33,484 nucleotides of DNA from Candidatus Latescibacterota bacterium (lineage in GTDB: Bacteria > Latescibacterota > UBA2968 > UBA8231): positions 1 to 33,484 of the forward strand of contig SICG01000032.1 in the NCBI GenBank assembly GCA_009691525.1, given 5' to 3'. Made by a program: the position numbers and the translations under genes. Below, in pieces: positions 4,423 through 25,117 of this stretch (position 1 is the first letter of the stretch; the number at the start of each line of letters is the position of its first letter). The notes beneath the pieces are model-generated. The model searched no databases. It saw nothing but the letters and a program-made list of their open reading frames with translations, and was not told the DNA's origin.

Positions 4423-4427
4423 GACCC

Positions 4428-8868: not shown

Positions 8869-9699
8869 CTAGCCGTAGACCTTGGCCAGAACCCGGCTCA
8901 CCACCTCGGCCAGTTGCACCAGATCAAAGGGCTTGGCCAGGTACTCATCCGCCCCGTACATCAACCCCTTCACCTTGTCCGGGGTCGCATTCAGGGCCGT
9001 GAGCATAACCACGGGTATGCGCTCGGTCTCGGAGCGCAGCTTCAACTGGCGGCAAACCTGGTACCCGTCTATCTCCGGCAGGCGCAGGTCCAACAGGATC
9101 AGGTCGGGTTTTTCGGCCAGGGCCAGGGTCAGAGCCTCTCGCCCGTCCTGGGCAGTGGTCACCTCGTAGCGCTCGGCAAAGAACTCGCCCAGCAACTGGC
9201 GGATCTCGATTTCGTCGTCGACGATCAGCAGCTTGAACCGGCGCCGCCGCTCGGCCTCGCCGGTGCTCAACAGCCGGCGCTGGACCTCGGCGATGCGCTG
9301 GTTCCGCCCCGCCAGCACCCCTACCCAGACCTTGAACAGATTGCGGCAGAACTGCTGGAAAAGCTGTCTGGGACGCGCTTCGAAGAAACCCAACACGGCC
9401 TCGCGATGGATGCGCCACAGGCGCCCGGAGGTGTTGCCCCAGATGGCCGAGCGCTCGATCTGGGGGGCCAGGATGGCCGAGGTGCCGATGGTATCCCCCG
9501 CCCCCAATTCGGCCAGGGTCACATTGCCCACCCGGACCGCGGCCTGCCCCTCGTCCACAATGTGGATATCCCACTCGCTCCGGCCGGCCGGCAGGATCAC
9601 CTCACCCGCGTCAAAACCCACCGGCTTGCCCAGCGCCAGAAAAGCCTTGCGCTCCGGGTCGCTGAAGCCGCGCAACAGGATCTCGATCTCGCTGGCCAT
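8869..9699 (-). CDS. Cyclic-nucleotide-binding-fold domain fused to a response-regulator receiver domain
   Basis: 276 aa. Residues ~1-120 form a CNBD-like beta-roll (GFSDPERKAFLALG, then VILPAGRSEWDIHIVDEG and LAELGAGDTIG). The phosphate-binding Arg is kept in ERSA (R83), but the usual Glu of the FGE-type motif is replaced (IGTSAIL). A helical linker follows. Residues ~155-276 are a complete REC domain: DD161-162, phospho-acceptor D204 in LLDLRLP, T234 and K256. There is no HTH or output enzyme, so it probably acts by protein contact like single-domain receivers. It is paralogous to the CNBD protein at 18214-18654. It has a strong RBS (GAGGAGGG) before ATG 9699 and lies 21 nt after the secretin gene. 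Inference: it couples a second messenger and a histidine kinase signal to pilus function. Confidence 0.85.
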   Translation of the reverse strand: MASEIEILLRGFSDPERKAFLALGKPVGFDAGEVILPAGRSEWDIHIVDEGQAAVRVGNVTLAELGAGDTIGTSAILAPQIERSAIWGNTSGRLWRIHREAVLGFFEARPRQLFQQFCRNLFKVWVGVLAGRNQRIAEVQRRLLSTGEAERRRRFKLLIVDDEIEIRQLLGEFFAERYEVTTAQDGREALTLALAEKPDLILLDLRLPEIDGYQVCRQLKLRSETERIPVVMLTALNATPDKVKGLMYGADEYLAKPFDLVQLAEVVSRVLAKVYG

Positions 9700-10857: not shown

Positions 10858-11735
10858 CGCTTGGCGTCGAACTCCGCTTTGAGGGCGACCCGCTCCTCTA
10901 TTCCCCCCTTGTTGAGCACGAACCACACGCGGTTGCGCCGGATGTCGATCGCAGCCAGCCGACCCATGAAGACCCGGTCCCCTTCCCGCAGGATGTGCGC
11001 CCGCCCCTTTTTGTCGACCAGATAAGCCGTGTCGTGGGTCAGGGCCTTGACCCTGGCCCCCTCCACCTCGAAAAAGTCGGAGCGGTTTTCGGGCAGATGC
11101 TGGGTGATCGAGGGCAGAAAGGGATTGGGCGCCGCTTCCTCGGCTGACAAGGGTGCCCCGGGCAGGGCCTCTTCGATCTGGCCGGGGGCGAAAAAGGCGC
11201 GCATGAACATCTTGAAACGCACCTGTTCCCAGGCAGCGGTGTACATCCCCGAATCCGGCTCCACGTACTCGATCTCCACATGGTCCACAGCGTAAAAATG
11301 CCGCCCGTGCTCCAGGCGCCAGATAAAGGAATAGAGCTTCTCGAAATGCCCAACGCCCTCCAGGGCATAGCGGTTGACACTGTAGCCCTTTTCATCCTTC
11401 TGCCCCTTGTACACCAGGTCAAAGCTCACAAAAGACCCAGGGCTTTTCAGGATCTGATACAGATAGTCCAGGGTCTGCGCCGGACTGTCCACTGCGGGGA
11501 TCACCTGGGTCCTGGCGCTCCAGCGCTCCTCCTGGCGCTCCAGGTACGCCCGCGTGGTGTCGTACAGGGCCAGCACCGAGTTGGCATTGTCCAGCTCGGC
11601 CCTGAGGGTCCGCTCGCGCTCCTGGAGCTTTTTGACCTGGCCTGCCTGGCGCACCTGGGTCCAGTAGAATCCTCCGGCAGCTAACAGGGCCAGCAGCACA
11701 CCCATGATCAGGGTATTGCGCCAGGCGTAGGACAT
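10854..11735 (-). CDS. PilO-PilP-like fusion protein (inner-membrane alignment subcomplex)
   Basis: 293 aa. One transmembrane helix at residues ~9-28 is followed by a coiled coil (VKKLQERERTLRAELDNANS) and a PilO-type periplasmic fold (DSPAQTLDYLYQIL, GHFEKLYSFIWRLE, residues ~80-185). A linker then leads to a C-terminal PilP-like beta-sandwich (NPFLPS near residue 204, then VKALTHDTAYLV, ILREGDRVFMGRLAAI). In classical systems PilO and PilP are separate; PilP links the inner-membrane complex to the secretin. Here the fused protein would do both. It starts 4 nt after the PilM-N fusion, and its stop overlaps the secretin start. Domain borders are judged by eye; the PilP assignment is less certain than PilO. 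Confidence 0.75.
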   Translation of the reverse strand: MSYAWRNTLIMGVLLALLAAGGFYWTQVRQAGQVKKLQERERTLRAELDNANSVLALYDTTRAYLERQEERWSARTQVIPAVDSPAQTLDYLYQILKSPGSFVSFDLVYKGQKDEKGYSVNRYALEGVGHFEKLYSFIWRLEHGRHFYAVDHVEIEYVEPDSGMYTAAWEQVRFKMFMRAFFAPGQIEEALPGAPLSAEEAAPNPFLPSITQHLPENRSDFFEVEGARVKALTHDTAYLVDKKGRAHILREGDRVFMGRLAAIDIRRNRVWFVLNKGGIEERVALKAEFDAKR

Positions 11736-11739
11736 GGCT

Positions 11740-13353
11740 TTAGCGCCCTGCCCCGGACGGGACGAGGGGGATGCGCATCTCGAATTGGTGGACTGCTCGG
11801 CCGCGGATCTGGTCGCGCATACTGGAACGGACTAGCGTTTCCCCCAGGCGCTGGGCCAGTTCGGGCACCCGGTCCCGGTAAAGCGCTTTGCCGTACAGGG
11901 AGATGGCCTGGGAAGGGGGCAGGCCCTGCGCCTCCACGTCGCGCCGCACATCGAGGTTGCCCTCGGCGGTGGACAGTTTCTCCAGCCAGATGTCCTCGGT
12001 CCACAGGACGGCCCACGCCACCTCGCCCAAGTGCTCGGCCCAGCGCAACCGCCGGGCTTCCAGGGTGTCGAGCAGGGCAAAACGGCCTTCGTACTGATTG
12101 ATCCGGGCGTTCAGGTCGTCTACCATCTTCACGTACGCGGCGTTTTCCCGCACCTGGCCCTCCAGCACCTCCACGGCCAGGCCCAGTTCGTCGAACTGCT
12201 GTTCTTGCTCCTGGGCAATCCCGCCCAACCACAGCGCCGCCACTGCCAGCAGCGCCAACAGGAGCAGGCCGTGCCAAGCCAGCTCAAAGGGGTTTTGCTG
12301 CTTGCGGCGCGCCCTGGGGAGGAAATTGACCGGGTACAGCCGCTTTTCCTGCAAATACAGGGCCTTGAGCGCCAAACCTATGGGCACGGCAAAACTGGAG
12401 ACCTGTTCCCGCTCCGCATCGTCCAATTCTCCCAGGTCCAATTCCGGCACCGCCAGATAGTCGACCTGGGCCTGGGGGAACTGCCCGGCGAAGAAGGGCT
12501 GGGCCTGGATGGCCTTGCACCCCCCGGCCAGGACCACCTGGCCTATTTCGGGCAGGTCGTTGTTGTCCTGCTCGTAGAGGATGCGGCTGTACACGGTCTG
12601 GAGCACCTGGGAGGAGACCAGGCCCTCGTGGATGGGCTGGGAAAAGGCCAGACACTCGCCCTGGCGCATGAAGATCACCCGGCTGTACTCCTCGCCCACA
12701 AACACGATGGCCATCACCTGTTCCGCCGCAGGGTAGGCCAGCTTGGCCAGGTCCATCAGCGCCACCTCCAAAGGCTCGATGGCCCCGACCCGTACCCTGC
12801 CGATGAAGGGGGTGAGAGAATCCAGCAGCCCCAGCAGCTCGAGGGGGTCCTCGTGGATGATGGACAGCAGGCGCTGCGGGCCGGTGGCGAAGAAGGCGTG
12901 GCGCTCGGCCAGGGGCAAGGCGCCGGCCCAAGTCCTCCCCTTCTCGGTCTGGGCGATCAGCCGCTCTTTGAGGCGTTTGCCCTTGAGGCCAAAGCTATCC
13001 TCAAAGGGGGTGAAGAAGACGCAACTCTCCACCAGGGAAAAAGCCAGCCTGCAGCGTTTTACCGGAAAGCGCTCGAGCAGCCCGTACAGGACCTCGGTGT
13101 TGGTCTCCGGCGGACCGCCTTCTTCCTCGACCCCTTTGGCAGCCGGCTCCTCTACCAGTCCCAGAATATCCCCTGGGCTGGCCGACCCCGCCGCTGCCCC
13201 CCCCTCCTGGCCCACCTCCAGCCGGCTGGCCAGCGAGGCGCTGCGCAGGCCAGCTGCCACCACCTTGCGCCCCTGGCGCCGCAGATGGGCCACCAGGACC
13301 CGCTGGCCATCTACCTGCAATCCCAGTGCTTCTCTGGTTCCAGTCCCCAGCAT
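11740..13353 (-). CDS. PilM-PilN fusion protein
   Basis: 537 aa in one uninterrupted frame. Residues ~1-335 resemble the actin-like cytoplasmic PilM (ALGLQVDGQRVLVAHLRRQG at the start, VVLAGGCKAIQ near residue 273, AVPIGLALKAL near 323). Residues 338 onward match PilN. First comes the cytoplasmic peptide (PVNFLPRARRKQQ) that in classical systems docks into PilM, then a TM helix (~357-378). A coiled coil and a small periplasmic fold end the protein. The covalent link replaces the usual PilM-PilN docking. No internal start codon with an RBS was noticed near the junction. Spacing to neighbours is 6 nt upstream and 4 nt downstream, so it is strictly cotranscribed. The role is a platform joining the motor ATPases and PilC to PilO/P. 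Confidence 0.82.
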   Translation of the reverse strand: MLGTGTREALGLQVDGQRVLVAHLRRQGRKVVAAGLRSASLASRLEVGQEGGAAAGSASPGDILGLVEEPAAKGVEEEGGPPETNTEVLYGLLERFPVKRCRLAFSLVESCVFFTPFEDSFGLKGKRLKERLIAQTEKGRTWAGALPLAERHAFFATGPQRLLSIIHEDPLELLGLLDSLTPFIGRVRVGAIEPLEVALMDLAKLAYPAAEQVMAIVFVGEEYSRVIFMRQGECLAFSQPIHEGLVSSQVLQTVYSRILYEQDNNDLPEIGQVVLAGGCKAIQAQPFFAGQFPQAQVDYLAVPELDLGELDDAEREQVSSFAVPIGLALKALYLQEKRLYPVNFLPRARRKQQNPFELAWHGLLLLALLAVAALWLGGIAQEQEQQFDELGLAVEVLEGQVRENAAYVKMVDDLNARINQYEGRFALLDTLEARRLRWAEHLGEVAWAVLWTEDIWLEKLSTAEGNLDVRRDVEAQGLPPSQAISLYGKALYRDRVPELAQRLGETLVRSSMRDQIRGRAVHQFEMRIPLVPSGAGR

Positions 13354-13359
13354 AGAACC

Positions 13360-16035
13360 TCAGTCCACGGTCACGCCAATGGCCAACTGGCGGTCGCCAT
13401 TGCGCGAGCGGACCTGGATCAGCACCGAGCCCCGTTTGGGCGGGTCCGACGGGTCCTCCTGCGGAGAGGGATCAGCGATGAAGATGGCATACTCGGTATT
13501 GCCACCCAGTGCGTCGGGAATGGTCAGCTCGGCGTCTCCCGAAATACCCGCCACGTCGCTGGTGACCCGGATGGTGCTGCCTCCCATGATGGGGTTGCCG
13601 TCTAGATCGCTGACCGAGAAGGAGACGATTTGAAACTGGCTGTCGGGGATGAAGAGCTGCCCGGCCGCCAGCGTGTCGGCGCCGGCGCCAGTGAGGCGGA
13701 TGGGCGCGGTGGGGCCGCTGAAGAGCACTAGGGCAGTCGCCTCGATCTCCAGGCCGCTCTCGTCCACGGTCTGGCCGGTGATGGTGGCCAGAAAAGCTGG
13801 GGCAGGAGGCATGGGCTCGGCGGTGAAGAGCGTCACCCCGGCCTGGCCATCCTCACTGGTCTGGGCCGATCCCTGCACTCCCCCGCCATCGGTGCGGAAG
13901 CGGATCGAAGTGCCCGGCCTGACCGGGTTGGAGTACTTGTCGAAGACATAGGCGGTGATGATGCTCTCCAGGCCCGAAATGACCCGGCCTGCCAGGTTGA
14001 GCGGGCCGGCGGCCAAACTGAAGTGGGCCTGGTCGGGCAGGCCGCCGTGGATGGCGATGGGCACCGGGGTCGAGCGCACCGTGTCCCCGGAGGCCAGGGG
14101 CGCTTCGGCGATCAGGCGCAGGGTGCGCGCCTGTGTGCCGCTGCTGACCGCCGCCTGCACCCGGCCGGCCACGGTGGTGGTGCGCTCTGGCCCCACCCGC
14201 TCGTCCCCCCCCGGCGGGGCGTCGAAGCGGAAGAGCACCCCCTCGCCGTCGGCCACAGTATTGCCCCGCGCGTCGCGCACCTCAAAGGTGACGATGGCCG
14301 TCTCGTTGCCGCCCGCACCCCGCACACTGATGGAGGGCGGTGCCACGGCCACCACCGCGATGCTGGCCGGCGGTCCTTTGGCCAGGATCACCGCTACCTG
14401 GGCGCTCAGGCCAGCGGCATAGGTGGCCCTCACCAGGGCCTTGCCCGCCTCGGTCCCAGCCACCAGGAGGACCTCGGCCAGACCCTCGGCATCGGTCTCG
14501 ACGCTCGCTGCCGACAAGGTCCCCAAGGTGGTGGAAAAGTGGACCGCCCTGTTGGCGATGGCCACCCCGTCGCTGCGCTCTAGCTGCGTCCGGATGCGGG
14601 CCTGAGCATTGCCGTCGGCGGCAATGGTGTCTGCCGAGGCCGAAAGTGAGAGCCTCACCCCCACCAGCCCCAGGCTCGTCTGCGCCCTCAGGCGCCCGGC
14701 GCTGACTTCGAGCTGCACCTCCGACACCCCCGGGTTCACCGGGCTCTGGTACAGGACGCGGGCCCGTCCGTCTTCGTCGCTCAGGCCGCTGGATTCCACG
14801 GTGCCGGCGCTGGCGGAAAACTGTACCACCACCCCGCTCACCCCGCTGCCGGCGCTGTCCAGCACCGTGGCCACCACCTGGGTCTGGCTGGCCCCGTCTG
14901 CCACCAGCGCGCTGTCGGCCACCGCCACGGACAGGGCCGCCGGGGCACCGCTGCTCGCCGCCGGGACCGCACCGCTGCCAAAGGAGGCCTGGGCATCCCC
15001 ATTGGGGGAAACTACTGTTATAGTCAGCCGCGGCACTTCCCCGGCCGGGTCGGCCTGGAAGCTGACTGAAAACAAGGTGGCCTCGGGCGATTGGGTGTCG
15101 GGCAGGGTGAGGTCGATCTGGCCGCTGGCCGTCCCCCCGGCGGCCTCCACCCTGATCCGCGTGCCCGCGGCCAGGGGATGGCCCTGGGCATCTCCCACAA
15201 AAAACAAAAAGGTCTGCGCCGCGCCCGGGGCTACTTCGAAGCGGGCCGGCTGGATCAGCCTGACTGAGGTGGGCCCGCTGAAGAGCACCTGCATTTGCGC
15301 CGTCAATACGGCCCCCCCGGCGCCCTGGGTCTGGGCACTGACCACCACCCGCCCGTCCTCTGGCAAGGGCTGGGCCGTGGTCAAGGTCGCCATGGCCCGC
15401 CCCGCACTGTCGGTCCTGGCCACCTCCTCGATGCCCCCGCCGCTGGTGCGAAAACGCACCAGGGTGCCTGGGGTGACCGGGTTTGAGGAGGCATCGAAGA
15501 CAAAGGCGGTGATCCTGTCGCTAAGGCCAAAGCGCACCCCGCCGGGCAGGTTCAGCTTTTCGGCGGCCAGGCTGAAGTGGGCCGCATCCGGCAGGCGCAG
15601 CGGGCCGGCACTCACCTCGCCGGCCTCGCCCTCTGCCTTTGCGGTAAAGGTGGGCGGCAGGCCTGCCAGACCCTGGACCGTGGCCCTCACCTGTTGGATG
15701 CCCGGTGAGGACCCCAGGGTCAGGCGGGTCTGGGCCCGGCCGTCGCGGCCAGTAGTGGCGGCGGTGTCGGCGAGCACCCCGCCCCCATCGACCACGGCAA
15801 AGCGCACCCGCACCCCCGCCACCGGGCCACCGGCCCCGTCCACGGCCTCGACCACCAGGGGCTGGGGCAGTTCTTCCCCCGGACTGCCGGTCTGGTTGTT
15901 GCCGGCGACGATGCGCAGATCGCGAAACACCCCAGGGGCGGTAGGCAAAGCGGGACTATCCTTTTCGCAGCCCGCCGCTCCCAGCAAGAGCAGCGCTCCG
16001 ACCCACCCTGCCAGGAATCGTTTCCGCACGTTCAT
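13360..16035 (-). CDS. Large lipoprotein with repeated bacterial Ig-like (Big_1/invasin-type) domains
   Basis: 891 aa. The start is ATG 16035, 1 nt after the upstream stop; a GTG at 16050 would overlap that gene. The lipobox gives Cys23 (LLLGAAGC). The protein is a chain of Ig-like beta-sandwiches rich in Ala, Gly, Thr and Val, with Big_1 signatures such as ALVADGASQTQVVATVLDSA and DTIAADGNAQARIRTQLE, each followed by GxAxVxL strands. Two segments of ~210-220 residues (about 149-355 and 666-889) are clearly homologous, sharing LPDxAHFSLAA, ITAxVFD, SNPVxPGT and RFRTxGGG. It has no TM or autotransporter domain, so it is probably tethered to a membrane and extends outward. Its position between the PilT-like/lipoprotein pair and pilMN suggests a pilus-associated adhesin or a structural collar. 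Confidence 0.85.
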   Translation of the reverse strand: MNVRKRFLAGWVGALLLLGAAGCEKDSPALPTAPGVFRDLRIVAGNNQTGSPGEELPQPLVVEAVDGAGGPVAGVRVRFAVVDGGGVLADTAATTGRDGRAQTRLTLGSSPGIQQVRATVQGLAGLPPTFTAKAEGEAGEVSAGPLRLPDAAHFSLAAEKLNLPGGVRFGLSDRITAFVFDASSNPVTPGTLVRFRTSGGGIEEVARTDSAGRAMATLTTAQPLPEDGRVVVSAQTQGAGGAVLTAQMQVLFSGPTSVRLIQPARFEVAPGAAQTFLFFVGDAQGHPLAAGTRIRVEAAGGTASGQIDLTLPDTQSPEATLFSVSFQADPAGEVPRLTITVVSPNGDAQASFGSGAVPAASSGAPAALSVAVADSALVADGASQTQVVATVLDSAGSGVSGVVVQFSASAGTVESSGLSDEDGRARVLYQSPVNPGVSEVQLEVSAGRLRAQTSLGLVGVRLSLSASADTIAADGNAQARIRTQLERSDGVAIANRAVHFSTTLGTLSAASVETDAEGLAEVLLVAGTEAGKALVRATYAAGLSAQVAVILAKGPPASIAVVAVAPPSISVRGAGGNETAIVTFEVRDARGNTVADGEGVLFRFDAPPGGDERVGPERTTTVAGRVQAAVSSGTQARTLRLIAEAPLASGDTVRSTPVPIAIHGGLPDQAHFSLAAGPLNLAGRVISGLESIITAYVFDKYSNPVRPGTSIRFRTDGGGVQGSAQTSEDGQAGVTLFTAEPMPPAPAFLATITGQTVDESGLEIEATALVLFSGPTAPIRLTGAGADTLAAGQLFIPDSQFQIVSFSVSDLDGNPIMGGSTIRVTSDVAGISGDAELTIPDALGGNTEYAIFIADPSPQEDPSDPPKRGSVLIQVRSRNGDRQLAIGVTVD
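13879..14040 (-). repeat. Intragenic repeat, copy 2 (Ig-like lipoprotein residues ~666-719)
   Basis: This encodes the segment starting LPDQAHFSLAAGPLNLAGR and is homologous to copy 1 at 15433-15591. The two copies flank the four or so simpler Big_1 domains. Confidence 0.75.
15433..15591 (-). repeat. Intragenic repeat, copy 1 (Ig-like lipoprotein residues ~149-201)
   Basis: This encodes the segment starting LPDAAHFSLAAEKLNLPGG. It matches the segment encoded at 13879-14040 at many positions, and the similarity continues downstream in both copies through LFSGPT and a C-terminal beta-rich part. Confidence 0.75.
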
Positions 16036-16036
16036 C

Positions 16037-16438
16037 TCAGGGATTAACACTCGAAATCAGCACCTTGACCAGGGCAGTGGCGTCGCGGAAGGAGGCGCGC
16101 ACCTCGGCAATCCCCGGCTGCCTCGCGGTGAATACCACACTGTACACCAGCTCACGGGTCTGCTCGTCGGCCACCAAAACCAGCACCTCAGGGGTATTGA
16201 CCACCCCATGCACCGAGGTAGTGACCACAATCACCGCCTGCATACCGCGCGCCAGATTGCTCTGGTCCACCCGCTTGAGCTTAAGGGTGAGCAGGGTCTG
16301 GTCCCCCACGTGGATAAGGCGGTCGGCCACCTCCGCGCTGAGTTCAAAGTCGTCGTGCGCGGTGGTGCCTGCGCTCTTGTCCACCGGTTCGCAGGCCAGC
16401 AGGGCGCACAGTCCCAGGAATAAAATTTCCGCTCTCAC
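16037..16438 (-). CDS. Small predicted lipoprotein with a single beta-sandwich domain
   Basis: 133 aa. The start is GTG 16438, overlapping the PilT-like stop (GTGA). The frame is open further upstream, but that part is a shadow of the PilT-like gene. The N-terminus is a lipoprotein signal (LFLGLCALLAC, Cys16). The mature part is predicted beta-rich (LIHVGDQTLLTLKLKRVD, VIVVTTSVHGVV, ELVYSVVFTARQPGIAEVRA) and looks like one Ig-like domain. No family is recognised. Being coupled to the ATPase gene and followed 1 nt later by the large Ig lipoprotein suggests the two lipoproteins form one surface structure. It could be a pilotin or secretin partner, but nothing in the sequence proves that. Confidence 0.7.
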   Translation of the reverse strand: MRAEILFLGLCALLACEPVDKSAGTTAHDDFELSAEVADRLIHVGDQTLLTLKLKRVDQSNLARGMQAVIVVTTSVHGVVNTPEVLVLVADEQTRELVYSVVFTARQPGIAEVRASFRDATALVKVLISSVNP

Positions 16439-17640
16439 AGCAACTCCTCCATGCGGCGCTTGTTGTTGGCGAAGTTGATGGCCTCCTTGTCGGAGATCTT
16501 GCGGGCATCGACCAGGCGCTTGAGATCCTGTTCCATGGTGTTCATGCCCTGGGCATTGCCCTCGTGCATCATCTGATAGATCTCGCTGGTGTTGTTGTTC
16601 TTGATGGCCGAGCGCACCGATGAATTCACCACCAGCACCTCCTTGACCAGGGCCCGCTTGCCGTCCAAGCTGGGCACCAGTTTCTGGGAGATGATACACT
16701 TGAGCACGTCGCCCAGGCGCTCGCGCACCCGGTTCTGCTCCTCGGGAGGGCACTCGCCCACAATGCGGTCGACGCTATCCGAGGCCGAGGCCGTGTGCAG
16801 GGTGGAGAAGACCTTGTGGCCGCTGTCGGTGATCTCCAGGGCGGTGATGATGGTCTCGGGATCGCGCATCTCTCCGATGACGATAATGTCGGGGTCCTGT
16901 CTGAGAGCCTGCACCGCCCCCTCCTTGAAGGAGAGCACATCGCGGCCCACCTCGCGGTGGCGCACGATGGATCGCTGGGGCTGGTGGATGGTCTCGATGG
17001 GGGAGCCGATGATCACGATGTGGCCGTCCACCAGCTGGTTGTTGGCGTCGATGATGCTGTCGAGGGTGGAACTCTTGCCAGAGCCGGTGATGCCGGTGAC
17101 CAGGGTCAGCCCCTGCTTGTCATAGGTGAGGATAACCGCCTTCACCGCATTGGGGTGGAGTTCGATGTTCTTGAAGGGGCGGATGACATTGGCCACATAG
17201 CGCATGTTCAAGGCCAGATGGTCCAGGTCGAAGTAGAGGTCCGCCCTGAAGCGGTACGGCTTGCCCTCCCACTCAATGGCGTAGGAGAAATCCAGGTTGC
17301 GGTGGAGGTAAAGGTACTCCCGCTGCCGCTCCATCAACAAACTATGGAAGAGCAGGTCGGTCTGGTCCTGGGTGAAGGGACCGCTCGCCTCGTCGGGTTT
17401 TTTCTCCCCGTAGATCCGGTACCACACCCGGCCCCCGCAGCCGCCGCCGCCCAAGTCGATATCCGAGGCGTTTTTGGTGGCCATCTGAGCCAGGAGGCCG
17501 TTGATGGCGCTTCGCAGCACATCGCTCTCCTCGCGCGGCAGGCTTTCCACTAATTGGGCCACACACTGCTGGCGCTCGACTCCGCTCAGGTTCTGGGAGA
17601 TCTGCGCAGCGGCCTTGCTCAGGATCTCTTTCACGTCCAT
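16435..17640 (-). CDS. pilT: PilT/PilU-like pilus retraction ATPase with altered Asp box
   Basis: 401 aa. Residues ~40-150 are a PAS-like N-domain and ~160-400 the RecA-type motor. Walker A is GITGSGKSS (183-191), Walker B is DPDIIVIGEMRDPE (249-262), and the His box is GHKVFSTLHTA (274-284). The C-terminus has the PilT/U-style SAIKNNNTSEIYQMM and GMNTMEQDL. There is no tetracysteine zinc motif, which separates it from PilB. The usual Asp-box IEDPIEY reads IGSPIET (211-217), so the Glu-Asp pair is lost. A poly-Gly stretch with a Cys (GGGGCGG, ~64-70) is also odd. Expected role: hexameric cytoplasmic motor for filament depolymerisation. Spacing of 9 nt to the upstream PilW-like gene and GTGA overlap downstream show tight coupling. 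Confidence 0.87.
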   Translation of the reverse strand: MDVKEILSKAAAQISQNLSGVERQQCVAQLVESLPREESDVLRSAINGLLAQMATKNASDIDLGGGGCGGRVWYRIYGEKKPDEASGPFTQDQTDLLFHSLLMERQREYLYLHRNLDFSYAIEWEGKPYRFRADLYFDLDHLALNMRYVANVIRPFKNIELHPNAVKAVILTYDKQGLTLVTGITGSGKSSTLDSIIDANNQLVDGHIVIIGSPIETIHQPQRSIVRHREVGRDVLSFKEGAVQALRQDPDIIVIGEMRDPETIITALEITDSGHKVFSTLHTASASDSVDRIVGECPPEEQNRVRERLGDVLKCIISQKLVPSLDGKRALVKEVLVVNSSVRSAIKNNNTSEIYQMMHEGNAQGMNTMEQDLKRLVDARKISDKEAINFANNKRRMEELL

Positions 17641-17649
17641 AGGGTCTCT

Positions 17650-18207
17650 TCAGAGATTCTTGGGCCGGATGCGCAGGGGCAGAAAAGCCCGCACATAGGT
17701 CGTGTCATAGGGCTCCGTGCTCTCGACCACCATGTCGACGCTGATCTGGCGTATATCCCCCACGGTCACGGGCAGGGCCAGGGAATCCCCCGCGGCATCA
17801 AAATAGCTCAGATTGAATCTGGTGATCCCCAGATCCAGCGATTGGGGGGCCCCGCCATTGAGGGCGCGGTAGAGGATGCGGTCCTCTGGGTTCTGGGTCG
17901 CGCTCGCCGCTGCCGTGCTGCTCAGATAGTAATGGAGCGTGTCCACAGCGCTGTCCCCATCCAGATCCGCCCTGAACTCGAATTCGGTCGAATCGGCCAG
18001 CAGGATGGCCGGCCCCGAGGCGCCATAGCCGGCCTTGGCCACGTCCTCCTCGACGATCTGGGCAATGGTCAGAGCGCCGTGCTGGGCGATATAGGTCAGC
18101 GAAGCCTCGAAGGAGTGCTCGCTCATATCCGCATTCAGGCGCAGCACATTGAGACCCAGCAACGACCCGAAGACAAACGATCCGATGAGATCGATCCAGA
18201 CGCCCAT
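17650..18207 (-). CDS. PilW-like minor pilin-like protein without a canonical prepilin motif
   Basis: 185 aa. The N-terminus is Met-Gly followed by a hydrophobic helix (VWIDLIGSFVFGSLLGLNVL), then a soluble domain typical of PilW-type minor pilins (IAQIVEEDVAKAGYG, EFEFRADLDGDSAVDTLHYY, NGGAPQSLDLGITRFNLSYF). The phrase about residual one-strand 'DxDGD' followed by a RALNG region is usual in PilW-like proteins. No G|FTLIE peptidase site or Glu5 is seen; a Gly at position 2 is the only candidate cleavage residue. It lies between the CNBD protein (6 nt) and the PilT-like ATPase (9 nt). The likely role is a priming or tip subunit of the filament. Confidence 0.7.
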   Translation of the reverse strand: MGVWIDLIGSFVFGSLLGLNVLRLNADMSEHSFEASLTYIAQHGALTIAQIVEEDVAKAGYGASGPAILLADSTEFEFRADLDGDSAVDTLHYYLSSTAAASATQNPEDRILYRALNGGAPQSLDLGITRFNLSYFDAAGDSLALPVTVGDIRQISVDMVVESTEPYDTTYVRAFLPLRIRPKNL

Positions 18208-18213
18208 TTATGC

Positions 18214-18654
18214 TCACCTAGCCGGCAGTTCCCGGCTGAGCTGGATCAGGCGCTCCTCGCAGCGCCTGATCAGGTTCATATGGATGTGGAAGGCGTTGAT
18301 ATAATATAAATGGGCCAGCCTCTCGGGCAAAGCCTCCAGATGAGCCAGCACGGCCGAGCGCATGAAGCGGCGCAACTCCACTTCGGTCTCGGCCACCAGC
18401 GAGGCGGTGCGCTCGTGCGGTTCCACCAGCGCCGTGACCCCCAGGACGCTGTCGGCGCCCACTTCGCTCACCTTGACATCCCTGGCCCAGATGGAGAGCA
18501 GCCCCTCCTCGATGAGCAGCATGTCGCTGCCCAATTCACCCTCCTTCAGCAGCAGGGCCCGGATCGGATGGCGCTCCGGTGTTCCCAGCGCCAGAAAAGC
18601 CCGGCGCTCGGCCTCGGAAAAGCCCTTGAAGAGGAGTTCTAGGTCGCTGGTCAT
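18214..18654 (-). CDS. Stand-alone cyclic-nucleotide-binding-fold protein
   Basis: 146 aa from ATG 18654, 5 nt after the PilV-like stop. It is a single CNBD-like domain (LKEGELGSDMLLIEEGLLSI, VSEVGADSVLGVTALVEPHE, RTASLVAETEVELRRF) followed by two C-terminal helices. The phosphate-cassette Arg is present (RTA, R82), but the Glu expected in the preceding turn is Val (LGVTAL), so cAMP may not be the ligand. No DNA-binding HTH follows, unlike CRP. The first 24 residues closely resemble those of the CNBD-REC protein (GFSEAERRAFLALG against GFSDPERKAFLALG), so the two are paralogues. Being inside the pilus operon, it probably modulates the assembly machine by protein contact. Confidence 0.82.
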   Translation of the reverse strand: MTSDLELLFKGFSEAERRAFLALGTPERHPIRALLLKEGELGSDMLLIEEGLLSIWARDVKVSEVGADSVLGVTALVEPHERTASLVAETEVELRRFMRSAVLAHLEALPERLAHLYYINAFHIHMNLIRRCEERLIQLSRELPAR

Positions 18655-18659
18655 ACGCT

Positions 18660-19043
18660 TCAGCGCTCTCCGACAATGGCGTTCAGGGTGACGGCCCCCG
18701 ACAGGTACGGACTGGCGGCGCTGACCTGCACCCGCTTGAGCGGGGTGGGGCCGGCCACGGCCTGGTCGGGCGAGGCGGCCGTCACATAATCCACCTGAGT
18801 GGTGCAGGCATAGACGGCGAAAGAGGTGGTTTCGGCCGCGGCCGAAACGCCGATGGCCACCGAATCGAAGCCAGCGGCGAGCGCTTCCTCCAGCCGGTCC
18901 TTGCACAGGGCTATGGCCACCATCCCAGCCTGGGCCTCGATGGCCACCTGGTCGCTTTGCAGCAGGGTGCTATTGACCGACAGGGCGATGGTGGACAAGA
19001 GCATCATGCCCGCCACCACCAGCAGCATCTGTCCGGTGTTCAT
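18660..19043 (-). CDS. PilV-like minor pilin-like protein without a canonical prepilin motif
   Basis: 127 aa. The start is ATG 19043; upstream open sequence lacks a start with an RBS. The leader is Met-Asn-Thr-Gly, followed by a hydrophobic helix (QMLLVVAGMMLLSTIALSV) and a region resembling PilV-type minor pilins (VAIALCKDRLEEALAAGFDS), then a beta-rich domain ending LSGAVTLNAIVGER. There is no FTLIE-type motif; Gly4 is the possible cleavage point. Two cysteines (in ALCKD and YACTT) could form a disulfide. It is 10 nt from pilB and 5 nt from the CNBD gene. Pilin-like status is inferred from size, N-terminal helix and operon position. Confidence 0.68.
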   Translation of the reverse strand: MNTGQMLLVVAGMMLLSTIALSVNSTLLQSDQVAIEAQAGMVAIALCKDRLEEALAAGFDSVAIGVSAAAETTSFAVYACTTQVDYVTAASPDQAVAGPTPLKRVQVSAASPYLSGAVTLNAIVGER

Positions 19044-19053
19044 GGGATGGACC

Positions 19054-20826
19054 TCACTCGCCGGTAGTGGTGGCCGCCAGCACTTCCTCGAGGGTGGCCT
19101 GGCCCTCGGCAACGCGCCCCAGGCCCGACTGCCGCAGGCTCATCATGCCCTGCGAGAGGGCCAGGCTGCGGATGGCCTCCTCGTCCACGGCATCCCCCGA
19201 GGAAACAATCAGCTGGCGGATCTCCTTGGTGAAGGTCAGGGCCTCATGGATGCCGGCCCTGCCCTTGTACCCGTTGTTGTGGCAGGAGGGGCAGCCCACC
19301 GGCTGGTGGATGCGGGCCTGGGCCAGCTGGGCCTCGGCCATGCCGGCCTGGAGGTACGCGTCTCGATCCACCTGATCGGCCGGCTGCCTGCACTCTTTGC
19401 ACAGGGTGCGGATAAGGCGCTGGGCCACCACGATATTGATGGCATTGGCGATCAGAAAAGGTTCTACCCCCATCTTGTACAGACGCGAGATGGCGCTGGG
19501 GGCGTCGTTGGTGTGTAATGTCGAGAAGGTCAAGTGTCCGGTGTTGGCCAGTTTGATGGCGGTCTGGGCCGTCTCCAGATCGCGCATCTCGCCCACCATG
19601 ACGATGTCGGGATCATGGCGCAGGATAGCCCGCACCGCATCCTCGAAGCGCAGGCGCGGCCCGATCTTGATCTGCCTGGCCCCGCGCAGGACGTACTCCA
19701 CCGGGTCCTCGATGGTCAGCACACACACCGTGGGGTCAATCACCGAGTGGAGGGCGGCGTTGAGGGTGGTGCTCTTGCCCGAGCCGGTGGGCCCGGTGAG
19801 GATGACGATGCCCTGGGGCTTGGCGATGGCCGCCTGAAAAGCGTTGAGGGCCGCCGACTGCAACCCCAGCTTGTTCAAGTCGGTGACCACCTTGCGGTCG
19901 TCGAGGATACGGATGACCACACTCTCGAAGCGGCGCTCGGGCTGAGCCCCGGCAATGGGCAGCACCGACACCCTGAAGCGGATCAGGAAGCCGTCGACTT
20001 GGCGCTGGATGAAACCGTCCTGGGCCTTCTCGCGCTCGAAACGGTCCACCCCCCGCGAGCGGTCCTTGACCACGGCGACCACGGCCTCAGGTTTGGTGGC
20101 CTCCTGGGCGTACCACAGCTGGAGATTGCCATCGATGCGGAAGTGAAACTCAGTGCGGTTGCCCTCCTGCGGGATGATGTGGATATCGCTGGCCCCCTGC
20201 CGCACCGCCTCCACCAGGCAGCCCTCCACCAGGTTGGTGAGCATGCTCTGGTTGATCTCGGCGTCCAGCGAGGCTTCGTCGAGATGCTCATCGGCTGCTT
20301 CCTCGGCGGCCGGCGCGTTCACACTCTTGAGGATGTCGAGAAATTCGTTCTTGGGCGGGAAGATCCGGTCGATCAGGCCCTCGATGACATCCAGCCGGCC
20401 GTAATAGATCTCCGGGCGCCGGTACCCGAACTGCCCGGCGATGCCCATCACCTCCCTGTCCGTCGGGTCAGGCGTCACCACCAGCAGGCGGTCCTGGGGT
20501 TTGTCCAGGGCCTTGAGGGGCAGCACCCGCTTGGCCAGGGCCTGCTCCCGCACTGCCTCTGGCAGAGTTTCCAGGGTCTTCTTGACGAATTCGCAGCCGG
20601 CCTCCTCAAAGCCCTCGGCCTGGAAATCGAATTCCTTGAAGGCATAGACCTTGGCCAGGCGGCTGAAGATGGCGTGGTGGTCCACCCCCAGATCGCGCAC
20701 CAGGATTTCGCCGAACTTGCGGCTGGGGTGCTGGTCCTGAATCTCGGCGGCCTTCCGCTCCGTCTCCGCGTCGATGACCCCCTCGCGGATGAGGATCTGC
20801 CCGATCCGGCTCTTGCTCTCAGCCAT
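19054..20826 (-). CDS. pilB: Type IV pilus/type II secretion assembly ATPase PilB/GspE
   Basis: 590 aa. Residues ~5-65 resemble an MshEN/T2SSE_N module (RIGQILIREGVIDAETERKA), a fold that binds c-di-GMP in some PilB/MshE proteins. The middle domain contains ASDIHIIP (212-219). The motor has Walker A GPTGSGKST (345-353), Asp box TIEDPVEYV (371-379), Walker B DPDIVMVGEMRD (405-416) and His box TGHLTFSTLHT (429-439). A zinc-binding tetracysteine follows (C476, C479, C512, C515 in LCKEC and GCPSC). This is a full-length extension ATPase powering polymerisation with PilC. It is 19 nt downstream of pilC and 10 nt upstream of the PilV-like gene. Confidence 0.95.
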   Translation of the reverse strand: MAESKSRIGQILIREGVIDAETERKAAEIQDQHPSRKFGEILVRDLGVDHHAIFSRLAKVYAFKEFDFQAEGFEEAGCEFVKKTLETLPEAVREQALAKRVLPLKALDKPQDRLLVVTPDPTDREVMGIAGQFGYRRPEIYYGRLDVIEGLIDRIFPPKNEFLDILKSVNAPAAEEAADEHLDEASLDAEINQSMLTNLVEGCLVEAVRQGASDIHIIPQEGNRTEFHFRIDGNLQLWYAQEATKPEAVVAVVKDRSRGVDRFEREKAQDGFIQRQVDGFLIRFRVSVLPIAGAQPERRFESVVIRILDDRKVVTDLNKLGLQSAALNAFQAAIAKPQGIVILTGPTGSGKSTTLNAALHSVIDPTVCVLTIEDPVEYVLRGARQIKIGPRLRFEDAVRAILRHDPDIVMVGEMRDLETAQTAIKLANTGHLTFSTLHTNDAPSAISRLYKMGVEPFLIANAINIVVAQRLIRTLCKECRQPADQVDRDAYLQAGMAEAQLAQARIHQPVGCPSCHNNGYKGRAGIHEALTFTKEIRQLIVSSGDAVDEEAIRSLALSQGMMSLRQSGLGRVAEGQATLEEVLAATTTGE

Positions 20827-20845
20827 CGCTGTCCCGGCTCACTGC

Positions 20846-22183
20846 TCAGCCGGCGCCCTTGGGTCTGACCATCGCCGTCTCGGAAGACACCAGGGTCAGC
20901 GCCGTCATCACCACCATGATCAGCATCGAGATAATCACGTTGATCAGTTCGACGACGTTTTTCATCTTGTAGGAAGTCTCGCGCTCGTAGTAATTGGCCA
21001 ACTGTAGCGCGGTATTGCGCAAGGCCCCTGATTCCTGGCCCGAGCGCAGCCTGGAGATGGCGGTGACGGTGAAGATCTCGGCCCGCTCCAGCGACTCCAC
21101 CAGCCCCCTGCCCTCCTTGAGCATCATCGGGATCACCACCTCCTTGACCTGGCGCTCGATATAGGTGTTGCGGCAGGCCTCGGCCGCCACCCGGATGACC
21201 GGGATATTCTCCCCCGACCCCGAGTACAGGGCATAGAACACCCGCGCGAAGATCTCGATGCTGGTCTTGTGCAACAGCGAGCCGATCACTGGTATCCTGA
21301 TCATGAAGCGGTCGCGCAGGTAGCGGCCCCGCGGGGTGCGGAAGAAGAGACCCAAGGCCACAAAGGGAGCCAGACAGGCCGGCAGCAGCCAGGCGATATT
21401 GCCCCGCAGGAAATTGCTCAACTGGAGGGTGGCCTTGGTCATGGGGGGCAGATCGATGCCGAACTTGAGGAACATCTGGGCCGTGGCGGGAAAGATATAG
21501 CCCACATAATAGGCCACTGCCCCCAGGAGCACCATCACGATCACCGCCGGCATGATCAGGGCGCTTTTCAGGCTCTTCTTGAATTCCTCGTCCCGCTCCA
21601 GGAATTTGGCCGTGCTCTCGTACACCTCGGCCATATTGCCACTGGTGGAGGCCACCCCGAGCATATAGGCGGTGAAGCGCCCCAGCACGTCTGCGTGTTT
21701 GCCGAAGACCTCGCTCCCCTCCTTGCCGTTCTTGAGATCCTGCTGGATCTCGCGGATGGTCTTGGCCATGGTGGGGTTTTCGGTGTCATTGACCATCAGG
21801 GTGAGGATCTCGTCGTAGGGCAGGCGCTCGCGCAAGAGATCGGCGCAGATGCGGGTGAAGAGGACGATATCCTTGGCGGGCGGCTTGAACTTGAAGTCCA
21901 GCAGCACCTTCTCCACCCGCAGCACCCGGTAGTTCAGCTTGCGCAGGCCATTCTCCACCTCCTCCCTGGAGAAGGCCGCCTGCTCGCCGTGGATGGGCTT
22001 CTCGTCCCCGCGCCGGGCCTTGTAGCGGAAGGTGGATTTCTGCTGCAGGGTGGTGAGACGGATATTCTGCCGCCGGCACAACTCCTCCACCCGCTCCTTG
22101 GCTTCCCTGCGGTTTTTGGCGTTCAGCACACCCTGGGCCAGCCGGCCGGAGAGGCCGGTCCCTTGGTAGCGAAATTCGGGCAT
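20846..22183 (-). CDS. pilC: Type IV pilus inner-membrane platform protein PilC/GspF
   Basis: 445 aa from ATG 22183 (MPEFRYQG is the usual PilC start); the frame is open further up but crosses the hairpin region. It has a cytoplasmic N-terminus and two T2SSF repeats: first LFTRICADLLRERLPYDEIL to a TM pair (LIMPAVIVMVLLGAVAYYVG), second IEIFARVFYALYSGSGENIP to a final TM (VIISMLIMVVMTALTL). An ~85-residue segment before the first repeat includes FSREEVENGLRKLNYRV, which is longer than in many PilC proteins. It couples the ATPases to the growing filament. The gene follows the pilin by 84 nt with a stem-loop in between, and is followed by pilB. Confidence 0.93.
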   Translation of the reverse strand: MPEFRYQGTGLSGRLAQGVLNAKNRREAKERVEELCRRQNIRLTTLQQKSTFRYKARRGDEKPIHGEQAAFSREEVENGLRKLNYRVLRVEKVLLDFKFKPPAKDIVLFTRICADLLRERLPYDEILTLMVNDTENPTMAKTIREIQQDLKNGKEGSEVFGKHADVLGRFTAYMLGVASTSGNMAEVYESTAKFLERDEEFKKSLKSALIMPAVIVMVLLGAVAYYVGYIFPATAQMFLKFGIDLPPMTKATLQLSNFLRGNIAWLLPACLAPFVALGLFFRTPRGRYLRDRFMIRIPVIGSLLHKTSIEIFARVFYALYSGSGENIPVIRVAAEACRNTYIERQVKEVVIPMMLKEGRGLVESLERAEIFTVTAISRLRSGQESGALRNTALQLANYYERETSYKMKNVVELINVIISMLIMVVMTALTLVSSETAMVRPKGAG

Positions 22184-22205
22184 TGGTTCTCTAAATATAG
22201 TGAGC

Positions 22206-22240
22206 GTGGGGGTAGACCAGCGACGCCAGCCTACCCCCAC
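22206..22240 (-). terminator. Stem-loop between the pilin gene and pilC (attenuator or processing hairpin)
   Basis: A perfect 10-bp inverted repeat: GTGGGGGTAG at 22206-22215 pairs with CTACCCCCAC at 22231-22240, with a 15-nt loop. On the transcribed minus strand the stem is followed by GCTCACTATATTTAG, not a T-run, so full termination is doubtful. It more likely protects pilin mRNA or partly terminates, giving excess pilin over assembly proteins. Confidence 0.6.
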
Positions 22241-22267
22241 CGAAAGAGCAGCACCTCAGTCCAGGGC

Positions 22268-22663
22268 CTACAAATTGTCCGTGGTGGTGGGGTTGGCGTC
22301 CCCGAGGTTATATACCATGGTCACCACGACTGGTACTCCCGCGCTTTTCTCCTGATTGCCGGTGCCAGTGCAGGTGATGGTGTCCGCGTCGTTGACCTTC
22401 ACGGCAACAGCGCCATTGGCGTTGGTGGCGCCTGCGCCGATCTTCGCCAGGGTCATCCCGGTAAAAACATTGCCGCCGCCGCCCAGGCTAACCGGTTTCT
22501 TGGCCCACTGCTGAGAGAGGGCGACGACGCGCTGGCAATCACCAGCCATTGCATCCCGATTGCCAGCCAGCGAACTCTCACCGAACTGGGTCATACCCAC
22601 AGTGACCGCGATGCCGATGATGATCACCGCCAGGATGATCATGAGGATTTGCGTTTGTCCCAT
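22268..22663 (-). CDS. Pilin-like major subunit candidate without a canonical prepilin motif
   Basis: 131 aa with AAGGAG 8 nt before ATG 22663. The sequence begins MGQTQILMIILAVIIIGIAV: Met-Gly then an uninterrupted hydrophobic helix, followed by TVGMTQFGESSLAGNRDAM and a small Gly/Thr/Ala-rich beta domain. Two cysteines (in GDCQRV and ITCTG) may form a disulfide loop, as in pilins. It lacks FTLIE and Glu5 of type IVa pilins. From memory, similar MGQxQ-starting proteins occur beside PilB/PilC genes in FCB-type bacteria. It has its own promoter region with a CRP-type site and a downstream hairpin, both suiting a highly expressed filament subunit. The major-pilin role is inference. Confidence 0.7.
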   Translation of the reverse strand: MGQTQILMIILAVIIIGIAVTVGMTQFGESSLAGNRDAMAGDCQRVVALSQQWAKKPVSLGGGGNVFTGMTLAKIGAGATNANGAVAVKVNDADTITCTGTGNQEKSAGVPVVVTMVYNLGDANPTTTDNL

Positions 22664-22835
22664 GACCTATGCTCCTTGTTATGAGGTGGATGGGATAGGG
22701 GGAGTTAGTTGTAGGATGACTTACAACAGGTGGCCTGATGATCCTCCCAGAGAACTCACCCCCTTTCAGCCCGATTATTGGCATTGGGCAGTGGCAGGGC
22801 ACAGCCAATCAAGAAGTGCTACATAATACCAATTT

Positions 22836-22852
22836 AAAAATCTTTTTCAGCG
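22836..22852 (-). repeat. Direct repeat flanking the CRP-type site, copy 1
   Basis: The minus strand reads CGCTGAAAAAGATTTTT. A near-identical copy (CGCTGAAAAGTTTTT) lies at 22890-22904. Starts are about 52-54 nt apart, close to five helical turns, with the CRP-type site between them. Confidence 0.5.
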
Positions 22853-22857
22853 CTAAA

Positions 22858-22873
22858 AGTGATGCCCGTCACA
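22858..22873 (-). promoter_or_regulatory. CRP-family operator candidate upstream of the pilin gene
   Basis: The minus strand reads TGTGA-CGGGCA-TCACT, matching TGTGA-N6-TCACA at 9 of 10 positions. A -10-like TAAATT (22831-22836) stands at the spacing expected for class II CRP activation (site centre about -41.5). The same half-sites recur at 24145-24160. Confidence 0.55.
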
Positions 22874-22889
22874 AGCATCTTTTATCGAG

Positions 22890-22904
22890 AAAAACTTTTC
22901 AGCG
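22890..22904 (-). repeat. Direct repeat flanking the CRP-type site, copy 2
   Basis: The minus strand reads CGCTGAAAAGTTTTT, related to the copy at 22836-22852 by two single-base insertions. The AT-rich tail could also serve as an UP-element-like sequence. Confidence 0.45.
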
Positions 22905-23014
22905 AAGAAAGATGTTTCGATCCCCTCCCAGGGGTAGGTAGACAGCAGGGTTTCCCCTTATGCGCCAGCAATATAGCTCCAGAAGCGGAGCGAGGTCAAG
23001 TTGGTTTTCGCCCC

Positions 23015-24082
23015 TCATTCCAGCCACGAAAGCACGTTCAGGGTCCCTCCGCCCCCGGCGGCCACTGTGGAAGCCTGGATCAGGGCGGCATTGCTGTAGC
23101 GGATCTGCCCGTTCCCATTGCCGATGCAGTTGCCAGAGGGTTTGGTGGTCAGGGAGACCACCGCGCCGATGATGGTGGTGTGGACCTTGTCGATATCGTC
23201 GGCGATGATCAGGCCCGTGAAGGTCCCGGAGTTGAGGTTCTTGATCACCGCATTCCTGGCGCTGTTGTGGACCACCAGCACCCCGCTGCTGGCGCCAAAA
23301 CCCATAGACTGCCAGGTGGCTCCACTCGCCAGTTCCACATAGGTCACCCCCGAGAGGGGGAAGGTCAGATTGGCGGGATTGGTCACGTACTGGCTGCCAT
23401 TGGCCCCTGACTGGGCCATGGCCTTGAGACTACCCGAGGCGTACCCGAACACCGAATCGGGGCTGGCGGGAAAGGCGTAGACGGCATTCTGCTCGATGGT
23501 GGCGGCAGTGGCGGGTTTTGAGGGCGCGTAATCCACTCCAGCCACGGTGCCTCCTGCCTTTGAATTGCCGCCCCGATTATAGGTCTGGGTAGTGCTCACC
23601 CCCAGGGTCCCCTCCCCCGCAATCAGGTTGCCGTTCAGGTCGTGGTCCCGCCCGTCGATGATCAGGCCGCCCAACGTCGTCACCGTGGAATTGGCGGTGA
23701 CCCCGCCGCGCACCCCCGGCGGCACTGAGGGCAGGCTCACCAGCACTTCCACGGTATCCGCTGATTCACCGGCGTGCCCCCCGGCCCTGATCCGCACCTC
23801 ATCGGCGTTCAAGCTGGTGTCAGTGGAGCTGTCCTCCAGCGTCACCCACCCCGTGCCATCCCCTAGGGAGAGATTGGCGTACCCGGCCCGCCAGCTCAGG
23901 CTGTCGCTCAGAGCGGCCAGGGCCATCTGGGCCGCCGAAGTGGCCGAGAGCCTGGACACGGTCCGGTAGTAGTACTCCAGGAAATTGTCGGAGAAGAGCG
24001 CGTTCACCTCGTTGAGGTTGGCCCTGATCCAACCAAAGGTGACGACGAAGCCGGCGATGACGATCAGCGAGTACTTGCCCAT
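23015..24082 (-). CDS. PilX-like pilus assembly protein, first gene of the pilus operon
   Basis: 355 aa from ATG 24082; an upstream in-frame start at 24139 would place the hydrophobic helix too far in. The sequence starts Met-Gly-Lys-Tyr then a helix (SLIVIAGFVVTFGWIRANL), followed by an amphipathic segment with small residues (SATSAAQMALAALSDSLSW) typical of PilX-type N-termini. The long C-terminal part is Gly/Ser/Thr-rich and beta-helical in style (GGLIIDGRDHDLNGNLIAG, GVLVVHNSARNAVIKNLNSG, TFTGLIIADDIDKVHTTIIG), resembling the polymer-forming C-terminal regions of PilX-like proteins. It has no FTLIE motif. A CRP-type site lies 62 nt upstream. It is separated from the pilin gene by the regulatory gap but shares its strand. 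Confidence 0.7.
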   Translation of the reverse strand: MGKYSLIVIAGFVVTFGWIRANLNEVNALFSDNFLEYYYRTVSRLSATSAAQMALAALSDSLSWRAGYANLSLGDGTGWVTLEDSSTDTSLNADEVRIRAGGHAGESADTVEVLVSLPSVPPGVRGGVTANSTVTTLGGLIIDGRDHDLNGNLIAGEGTLGVSTTQTYNRGGNSKAGGTVAGVDYAPSKPATAATIEQNAVYAFPASPDSVFGYASGSLKAMAQSGANGSQYVTNPANLTFPLSGVTYVELASGATWQSMGFGASSGVLVVHNSARNAVIKNLNSGTFTGLIIADDIDKVHTTIIGAVVSLTTKPSGNCIGNGNGQIRYSNAALIQASTVAAGGGGTLNVLSWLE

Positions 24083-24235: not shown

Positions 24236-25117
24236 TTGGACCTGCCCGCACCAGAATCCGCCCCCTGGATCCCGCTTTTCCGCGCCCCCCAATTCGGCCC
24301 CTGCGCCGAGCGGGCCCTGGTCCTGGCGGCGCTGGGCATCGACTATATCCTGCTACAGGAGGACGGGTCGTACGTCCTGCTGGTAGAAGCCGGAGCCGCC
24401 CAACGCGCCGCCGGCGAGTTGAGCCAGTTCGAGGGGGAAAACGTGGGCTGGCCCCCTCCCGAGGAAATCCTGCCCCCCGAGGTGCCGGGCAGCCTGCACA
24501 GTCTGGTGGGATACGCGGGTATCCTCTGCTCGATCTTCTACCTGCAACGCACCCGCACCTACTCCCTGGACTGGTGGCAGGCCGGCAGAGGGGATGTCGA
24601 CCTCATCGCCGTGGGCCAGTGGTGGCGTGTCTTCACCGCCCTCACCCTGCACGCCGACGAAGCCCATCTGCTGGGCAATCTGCTCTTCGGCACTTTCTTC
24701 GCCTTCCTGCTCTGCCGCCAACTGGGGGCCGGCGCTGCCTGGTTCGCCATCCTGCTGGCCGGCGTCACCGGCAATCTCGTCAAGGCCCAGTTACACCCGG
24801 CTGACCACCACTTCATCGGCGCCTCCACCGCCGTGTTCGGTGCCATCGGCATGCTCTTGGCGCTGCAGTGGAAACCCCGCCCCTCGCGCTGGCGTCAGTG
24901 GGCACCCCTGATCATCGGCGCCGTGCTGCTAGGCTTTTTAGGCACAGCCGGCAAACACACCGACGTGCCGGCCCACATCGCCGGCATGGGCACTGGCCTG
25001 CTCATCGGCCTGGTCTGGCGCTGGCTGCCCGCGCCGCTGTCCCCATCCGTGCAGACAGCCCTGGGGGCTGCCACGTTGCTCTCCTTGGTATTCGCCTGGG
25101 CCTGGGCGCTGGCCTGA
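24236..25117 (+). CDS. Rhomboid-family intramembrane serine protease
   Basis: 293 aa with a TTG start at 24236. No better start was seen; the true start could lie slightly downstream. Residues ~1-80 form a small cytoplasmic domain (ALVLAALGIDYILLQEDGSY, then AAGELSQFEGEN) of a type common before bacterial rhomboid domains. Membrane part: a TM near residue 90, an L1 loop with WWQAG and WWRVFTAL, HLLGNLLFGTFFAFLL in the second core helix, the catalytic serine motif IGASTAVFGA, and the catalytic His in DVPAHIAGMGTGLLIG. A final TM ends the protein. It should cleave TM segments of single-pass membrane proteins. Divergent from the pilus operon and sharing its CRP-type site, so a processing role for envelope proteins there is possible but unproven. 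Confidence 0.88.
   Translation: MDLPAPESAPWIPLFRAPQFGPCAERALVLAALGIDYILLQEDGSYVLLVEAGAAQRAAGELSQFEGENVGWPPPEEILPPEVPGSLHSLVGYAGILCSIFYLQRTRTYSLDWWQAGRGDVDLIAVGQWWRVFTALTLHADEAHLLGNLLFGTFFAFLLCRQLGAGAAWFAILLAGVTGNLVKAQLHPADHHFIGASTAVFGAIGMLLALQWKPRPSRWRQWAPLIIGAVLLGFLGTAGKHTDVPAHIAGMGTGLLIGLVWRWLPAPLSPSVQTALGAATLLSLVFAWAWALA

Follow-up and report, generated by a model that had tools for sequence, protein, structure and literature searches.

One of the questions raised by a type IV pilus locus in a Candidatus Latescibacterota bacterium is how a filament can be assembled when none of its subunits starts with a prepilin leader. The locus lies in a stretch of 33,484 nt (GCA_009691525.1, contig SICG01000032.1; the window) and is complete, with four pilins, PilB, PilC, PilT and a secretin. 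In the literature, the class III signal peptide (a leader of 6-26 residues that ends in Gly) and a dedicated peptidase are treated as defining for type IV filaments, and leader cleavage as a universal step (PMC4471445). An earlier note on this DNA had described four proteins as a coherent class of pilin-like subunits with Met-Gly directly before a hydrophobic helix and no Glu5, and suggested that they are either processed by an unusual peptidase or not processed at all. The four open reading frames (ORFs) were confirmed, all on the minus strand: pilin 4 (23015-24082, starting MGKYSLIVIAG), pilin 1 (22268-22663, starting MGQTQILMIILAVIIIG, which reads MGQTQILMIIL), pilin 2 (18660-19043, starting MNTGQMLLVVAG) and pilin 3 (17650-18207, starting MGVWIDLIG). 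In our judgement it is quite likely that they belong to a distinct class of type IV pilus, in which leaderless pilins are born mature and are assembled without a prepilin peptidase.

Such a reading depends on the start sites. In the family of pilin 1, the major pilin candidate, 93 of 99 homologues have no ATG, GTG or TTG codon between the Met and the upstream in-frame stop, and a GGAG, GAGG or AGGA motif is found within 16 nt upstream of the start in 83 of the 99. No alternative start was found in 17 of 21 homologues of pilin 2, in 17 of 20 of pilin 3 and in 16 of 17 of pilin 4. In the window, the ORFs at 23015 and 18660 can be extended to GTG or TTG codons, but these extensions are not conserved in the relatives, in which in-frame stops rule out upstream alternative starts. 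Alternative starts, which could have undone the earlier proposal, do not restore a leader in any of the four. Canonical prepilins from the same genome set served as a positive control and show ordinary basic leaders, such as MLRKLKNQKG cut before FTLIE. The short N-termini, computed here across several phyla, are real.

Analysis of the N-terminal sequences shows that the shared Met-Gly does not hold for all families. In pilin 1, M1, G2 and Q5 are invariant among 90 aligned homologues in spite of a mean column identity of 31%, thus the likeness of the N-termini goes beyond chance; the recurring N-terminus is MG(Q/T)QQ(L/I)LLIVLG and Gly2 is found in 99 of 99 starts. Yet Gly is not the rule common to the four families. 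Pilin 2 (a family of 21) has an invariant M1 and the typical N-terminus M(N/G)TG(Q/E), with Gly usually at residue 4 and absent in some members, residue 2 of pilin 3 can be G, S, A, T, N or Q and is often Ser or Ala, and pilin 4 has an invariant Gly column in an alignment of 17 members, seven of which start with MFG. The absence of Glu5 is likewise true letter for letter, but Asp6 of pilin 3 (invariant in 20 of 20 homologues), which the earlier note had overlooked, aligns with the canonical Glu5, and at this position pilin 2 has Gln, sometimes Glu, and pilin 1 a hydrophobic residue. The Glu5 of the hydrophobic stretch, by which the type IV filament superfamily is recognized, is missing from the major pilin. 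The register was set by aligning sequence profiles of the leaderless helices with the N-termini of canonical prepilins; the probabilities were low, and these alignments served for register only. Relative to the canonical cut site, the initiator Met falls at -2 in pilin 1, at -1 in pilin 3 and at +1 in pilin 2 (all weak profile alignments), and by alignment a leader of 0-2 residues is left in place of a class III signal peptide. Methionine aminopeptidase is expected to act on MG, MA, MS and MT starts and not on MN or MF. Residue 2 allows this cleavage in all pilin 1 homologues and in 18 of 20 of pilin 3, but only in about half of pilins 2 and 4; removal of the Met is therefore likely, though it would not be a requirement.

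Prediction of the structures supports the pilin-like nature of the subunits, and here the earlier proposal of a coherent class was borne out by four syntenic families and by the pilin folds of the two subunits that were modelled, each a helix followed by a beta domain. The AlphaFold model of pilin 1 (mean predicted local distance difference test, pLDDT, 88.5) has a helix from residue 2 to 55 followed by four strands; its best match in the Protein Data Bank (PDB), by Foldseek, is the full-length PAK pilin 1oqw (prob 0.98), and the top five matches are all type IV pilins. The ComP pilin family (ComP_DUS) is weakly matched by 27 of 90 pilin 1 members. In the model of pilin 3 (pLDDT 87.9), a helix from residue 2 to 57 precedes the beta domain, and the top seven PDB matches come from EpsI:EpsJ pseudopilin structures (3cfi/2ret, prob 0.99-1.00), the chains being EpsJ by their length. 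On these models, pilins 1 and 3 have the subunit fold of the superfamily and pilin 3 is a PilW/GspJ-type minor pilin. Pilins 2 and 4 are probably pilins as well, based on synteny and helix pattern, pilin 2 as a small minor pilin of PilV/GspI type and pilin 4 as a long one of PilX/GspK type. Pfam and NCBIfam searches gave no name to pilins 1-3, and DUF4900 is matched by 10 of 17 pilin 4 members. The machinery beside them includes the traffic ATPase and the polytopic platform protein that are expected in the superfamily, namely PilB (19054-20826, minus strand; PF00437 1e-104, TIGR02538 5e-125, under the curated cut-off) and a PilC/GspF protein of about 445 aa (20846-22183, minus strand; PF00482 1.6e-30). 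The two components that point to a retractile type IVa pilus are also encoded on the minus strand: a PilT-type retraction ATPase (16435-17640) that scores just under the curated cut-off of TIGR01420 (2.5e-93, 313 bits against 319) and a PilQ-type secretin (9721-10926; PF00263 2e-24 and PF07660 2e-7).

If the pilins have no leader, is the prepilin peptidase also missing? The window genome, which is 84% complete, gave no PF01478 (A24) match even when E values up to 10 were allowed; the same search was positive in 12 of 14 control genomes and in most genomes from other lineages. No canonical prepilin was found in the window genome either. In the sample of relatives, A24 was found in none of the seven pilin-bearing Latescibacterota genomes, and it was not found in 33 of the 50 genomes that were reached by way of loci with the pilin. 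From the class to which the Melioribacter genome G086 belongs, 149 genomes were sampled evenly; the leaderless pilin is present in 82 of them and A24 in eight, all among those 82, which leaves 74 of 82 pilin carriers with no A24 detected. The check for A24 in carrier genomes that the earlier note had proposed thus finds most of them without it, as computed here. Among the A24-negative carriers G204 (a 3.74 Mb contig), G210 (3.67 Mb) and G137 (5.24 Mb) are nearly single-contig assemblies; therefore, incompleteness is not the reason for the absence.

Where A24 exists, it tracks the canonical N_methyl prepilins. Among 58 genomes, 15 have both, two have A24 only, four have N_methyl prepilins only and 37 have neither (Fisher p = 1.5e-8, to be read as descriptive since the genomes are related and were selected by the leaderless pilin and by its genus). 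A24 and canonical prepilins lie on one contig in nine A24-bearing genomes, often also with a canonical PilC. In the eight genomes of the class sample that have A24, the leaderless pilins listed sit on different contigs from it, except in G089, where 58 kb separate the two. In G097, one of the discordant genomes, T2SSF genes that are short and paired occur together with an A24 of 190 aa, a combination that appears to resemble Tad systems.

Other candidate enzymes were also considered. The relatives L007, L008 and L009 (genomes G016, G022 and G034), none of them found to carry the leaderless pilin, encode long divergent A24-like membrane proteins with aspartate motifs. A profile of this type gave only two marginal matches (E about 6e-4) in pilin-bearing A24-negative genomes, and the neighbour of the protein in L008 is an ORF that by eye looks FMN-binding-like rather than a pilus gene. 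A rhomboid-family gene in the window (24236-25117), divergent from pilin 4, was rejected as the processing enzyme, being found in same-genus loci only. No uncharacterized peptidase family is conserved in the locus flanks, and with no alternative peptidase conserved in the loci the 'unusual peptidase' half of the earlier proposal is disfavoured.

The class is not restricted to the window. A scan of public genomes with the major pilin yielded 365 relatives; the 80 loci that we retained come from Latescibacterota, KSB1, Ignavibacteriota, Kryptoniota, Calditrichota, Cloacimonadota and Neomarinimicrobiota, and from assemblies labelled Bacteroidota and Gemmatimonadota. The same four pilin families again neighbour this machinery in Ignavibacteriota, Kryptoniota, KSB1, Calditrichota, Cloacimonadota and others. 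The operon, by this computed comparison, is conserved: in L021 and L024 the gene order is pilin 1, PilC, PilB, pilin 2, a cyclic nucleotide-binding (CNB) protein, pilin 3, pilin 4 and PilT. In other loci, too, pilin 4 is flanked by pilin 3 and PilT, and in the window it stands at the head. Pilin 1 is often present in several copies, and G126, G230, G147 and G165 have 6-10 matches, some of them arranged in tandem, a pattern suggestive of a fibre subunit that varies. In L021 (about 19477-19850; G025:C15:20456-20824) the major pilin has a second copy in tandem, which reads MG-TAG-TQIL, with an amber codon straight after Met-Gly and the rest of the gene intact. In one genome of the window's genus (L022/L019; G002:C16:24169-24500) a stop and a change of frame interrupt the major pilin behind residue 21, and the homologue of pilin 4 is broken into fragments; here the pilus locus appears to be in decay.

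The computed tree of PilC fits a separate system. A long-stemmed branch with 100/100 support separates the PilC proteins of leaderless loci from canonical PilC, most of the latter from genomes that have both A24 and the leaderless pilin. In this unrooted tree the PilC of leaderless loci makes up a clade of its own on one side, which may have a single origin. At about 445-460 aa, this subfamily (20846-22183 in the window) exceeds canonical PilC in length, and its N-terminal region resembles a unit that is repeated (FRYQGTGLSGRLAQGV... and SREEVENGLRKLNYRVLRV...).

A mechanism that fits these data is that all four pilin types would be translated without a prepilin leader, with the start codon at, or at most two residues from, the cut site of other pilins. 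Because the start codon lies at or near the canonical cut site, the pilins would enter the membrane in essentially mature form, with the initiator Met removed at most; the exact mature N-terminus is deduced from the alignments and may differ. PilB and PilC would then assemble the pilins, PilT would retract the fibre, which would exit through the secretin, and an A24 prepilin peptidase would not be needed. Of the earlier alternative between an unusual peptidase and no processing, the second half is the one favoured, as a cut after Gly would not be conserved in the other families. We also regard it as likely, if a little less so than this mechanism, that this class, across several phyla of the Fibrobacteres-Chlorobi-Bacteroidetes (FCB) type, gave up prepilin maturation and encodes all its pilin families mature; leader cleavage and N-methylation by the prepilin peptidase would then, as part of the same judgement, not be required for the assembly of a type IV filament.

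Several observations weigh against this interpretation and in part feed other explanations. The register alignments are weak (probability <60%), so that residue 1 can be placed only approximately, the Foldseek E-values of pilin 1 are poor (0.04 at best), most of the genomes are draft assemblies, and G103 bears the leaderless pilin and A24 with no canonical prepilin detected. The formation of a pilus is itself deduced from genes alone, and an unrecognized non-A24 peptidase could act. One such option is that Met-Gly is a two-residue micro-leader cut by a non-A24 peptidase, which would leave a mature major pilin that starts with Gln (or Thr), possibly in the form of pyroglutamate. In the alignment, Gly2 of pilin 1, which is invariant, falls on the canonical -1 Gly, and loss of a Met-Gly dipeptide would suit this as well. 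But the pilins of the same operon have no Gly at one fixed distance from the start (S, A, T, N or Q in pilin 3 of many genomes, MFG in pilin 4, Gly4 or none in pilin 2), and the flanks offer no conserved uncharacterized peptidase family, the rhomboid being confined to loci of the same genus; we consider this option unlikely.

Another explanation is that processing is normal, with an A24 enzyme overlooked because genomes are incomplete or the enzyme is divergent, and with leaders missed through start-site errors. The window genome is indeed incomplete and divergent A24-like proteins do exist in some relatives. However, this is strongly contradicted, and we hold it for highly improbable, by the upstream stops of pilin 1, by the three nearly single-contig carriers, by an A24 search that succeeds in the controls and in most genomes of other lineages, and by the two marginal matches of the divergent profile. 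It is also possible, although rather unlikely, that the locus encodes a machine for type II-like secretion or other trafficking, with pseudopilins that never assemble into a fibre at the surface, an idea that is compatible with leaderless pilins. It gains from the similarity of pilin 3 to the pseudopilin EpsJ and from a fibre that is so far only predicted. On the other side, a PilT-type retraction ATPase (TIGR01420) is typical of retractile pili, and the major subunit, often in several copies, matches the PAK pilin and ComP-type families.

Compared with known systems, the locus resembles that of a type IVa pilus in having a major pilin with an extended helix and a beta domain, a PilW/GspJ-type minor pilin, and PilB, PilC, PilT and a secretin in one locus. 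It differs in its four subunits without a class III signal peptide, in the A24 that is missing from most genomes, in a Glu5 that is absent or replaced by Gln or Asp, and in the separate long-stemmed clade of PilC. Of the type II secretion pseudopilins GspI, GspJ and GspK, GspK has no acidic residue at the Glu5 position, like pilin 4, and pilin 3 is predicted to fold like EpsJ (GspJ); those pseudopilins carry cleaved leaders, whereas here there are none and a PilT-type ATPase is present. In archaeal type IV pilins Glu5 is often absent too (PMC4471445), but they have leaders and prepilin peptidases, Nanoarchaeota being the one group reported without a detected peptidase (PMC4471445).

The remaining genes of the locus are all on the minus strand. 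The CNB protein within the pilus operon (18214-18654; PF00027 7.5e-8) has related ORFs in 40 of the loci compared. A probable PilM with a PilN-like C-terminal part (11740-13353) was assigned by position and homologue distribution, with no Pfam match, and a probable PilO-like alignment protein (10854-11735) by position, with no informative Pfam match; related ORFs are found in 49 and 45 loci, respectively. A protein with Ig-like (Big_1/Invasin_D3) repeats in six stretches (13360-16050; PF02369 5e-45) is a possible pilus-associated adhesin, and a small protein (16037-16435) without a Pfam match has homologues only in the loci of the nearest relatives, the Latescibacterota. A second CNB protein, fused to a response-regulator domain, is found beside the pilus machinery (8869-9699). 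Elsewhere in the window, two adjacent large membrane proteins (2110-6377) are closely similar tandem duplicates.

What would such a class mean? Among open-licence papers (most subscription papers were outside the scope) searches for leaderless pilins or for a missing prepilin peptidase turned up no account of this class. A review mentions species that have the other components and yet no identifiable prepilins (PMC4471445). In the 2013 genome paper of Melioribacter roseus, pilT, pilQ, pilB and pilC were reported, pilA and pilD were "not found", and the pilus gene set was taken as incomplete (PMC3534657). In metagenome-assembled genomes of Melioribacter the leaderless pilin lies beside PilC, and those tested (G083, G086 and G098) have no A24. 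Argued from these assemblies, this offers an explanation in which the leaderless pilin would be the missing pilA and pilD would be unnecessary. Pilin searches rely on the leader signature, and the group, which appears to be large, appears to have been previously unrecognized; MGQQQLLLIVLG beside PilC provides a sequence signature for finding such pili in many uncultured lineages. If our interpretation is true, a widespread class of pili without leader or peptidase would make the cleavage step dispensable, would account for genomes that have pilus motors but no recognized pilin or peptidase, and would open the role of the leader and of N-methylation to direct tests.

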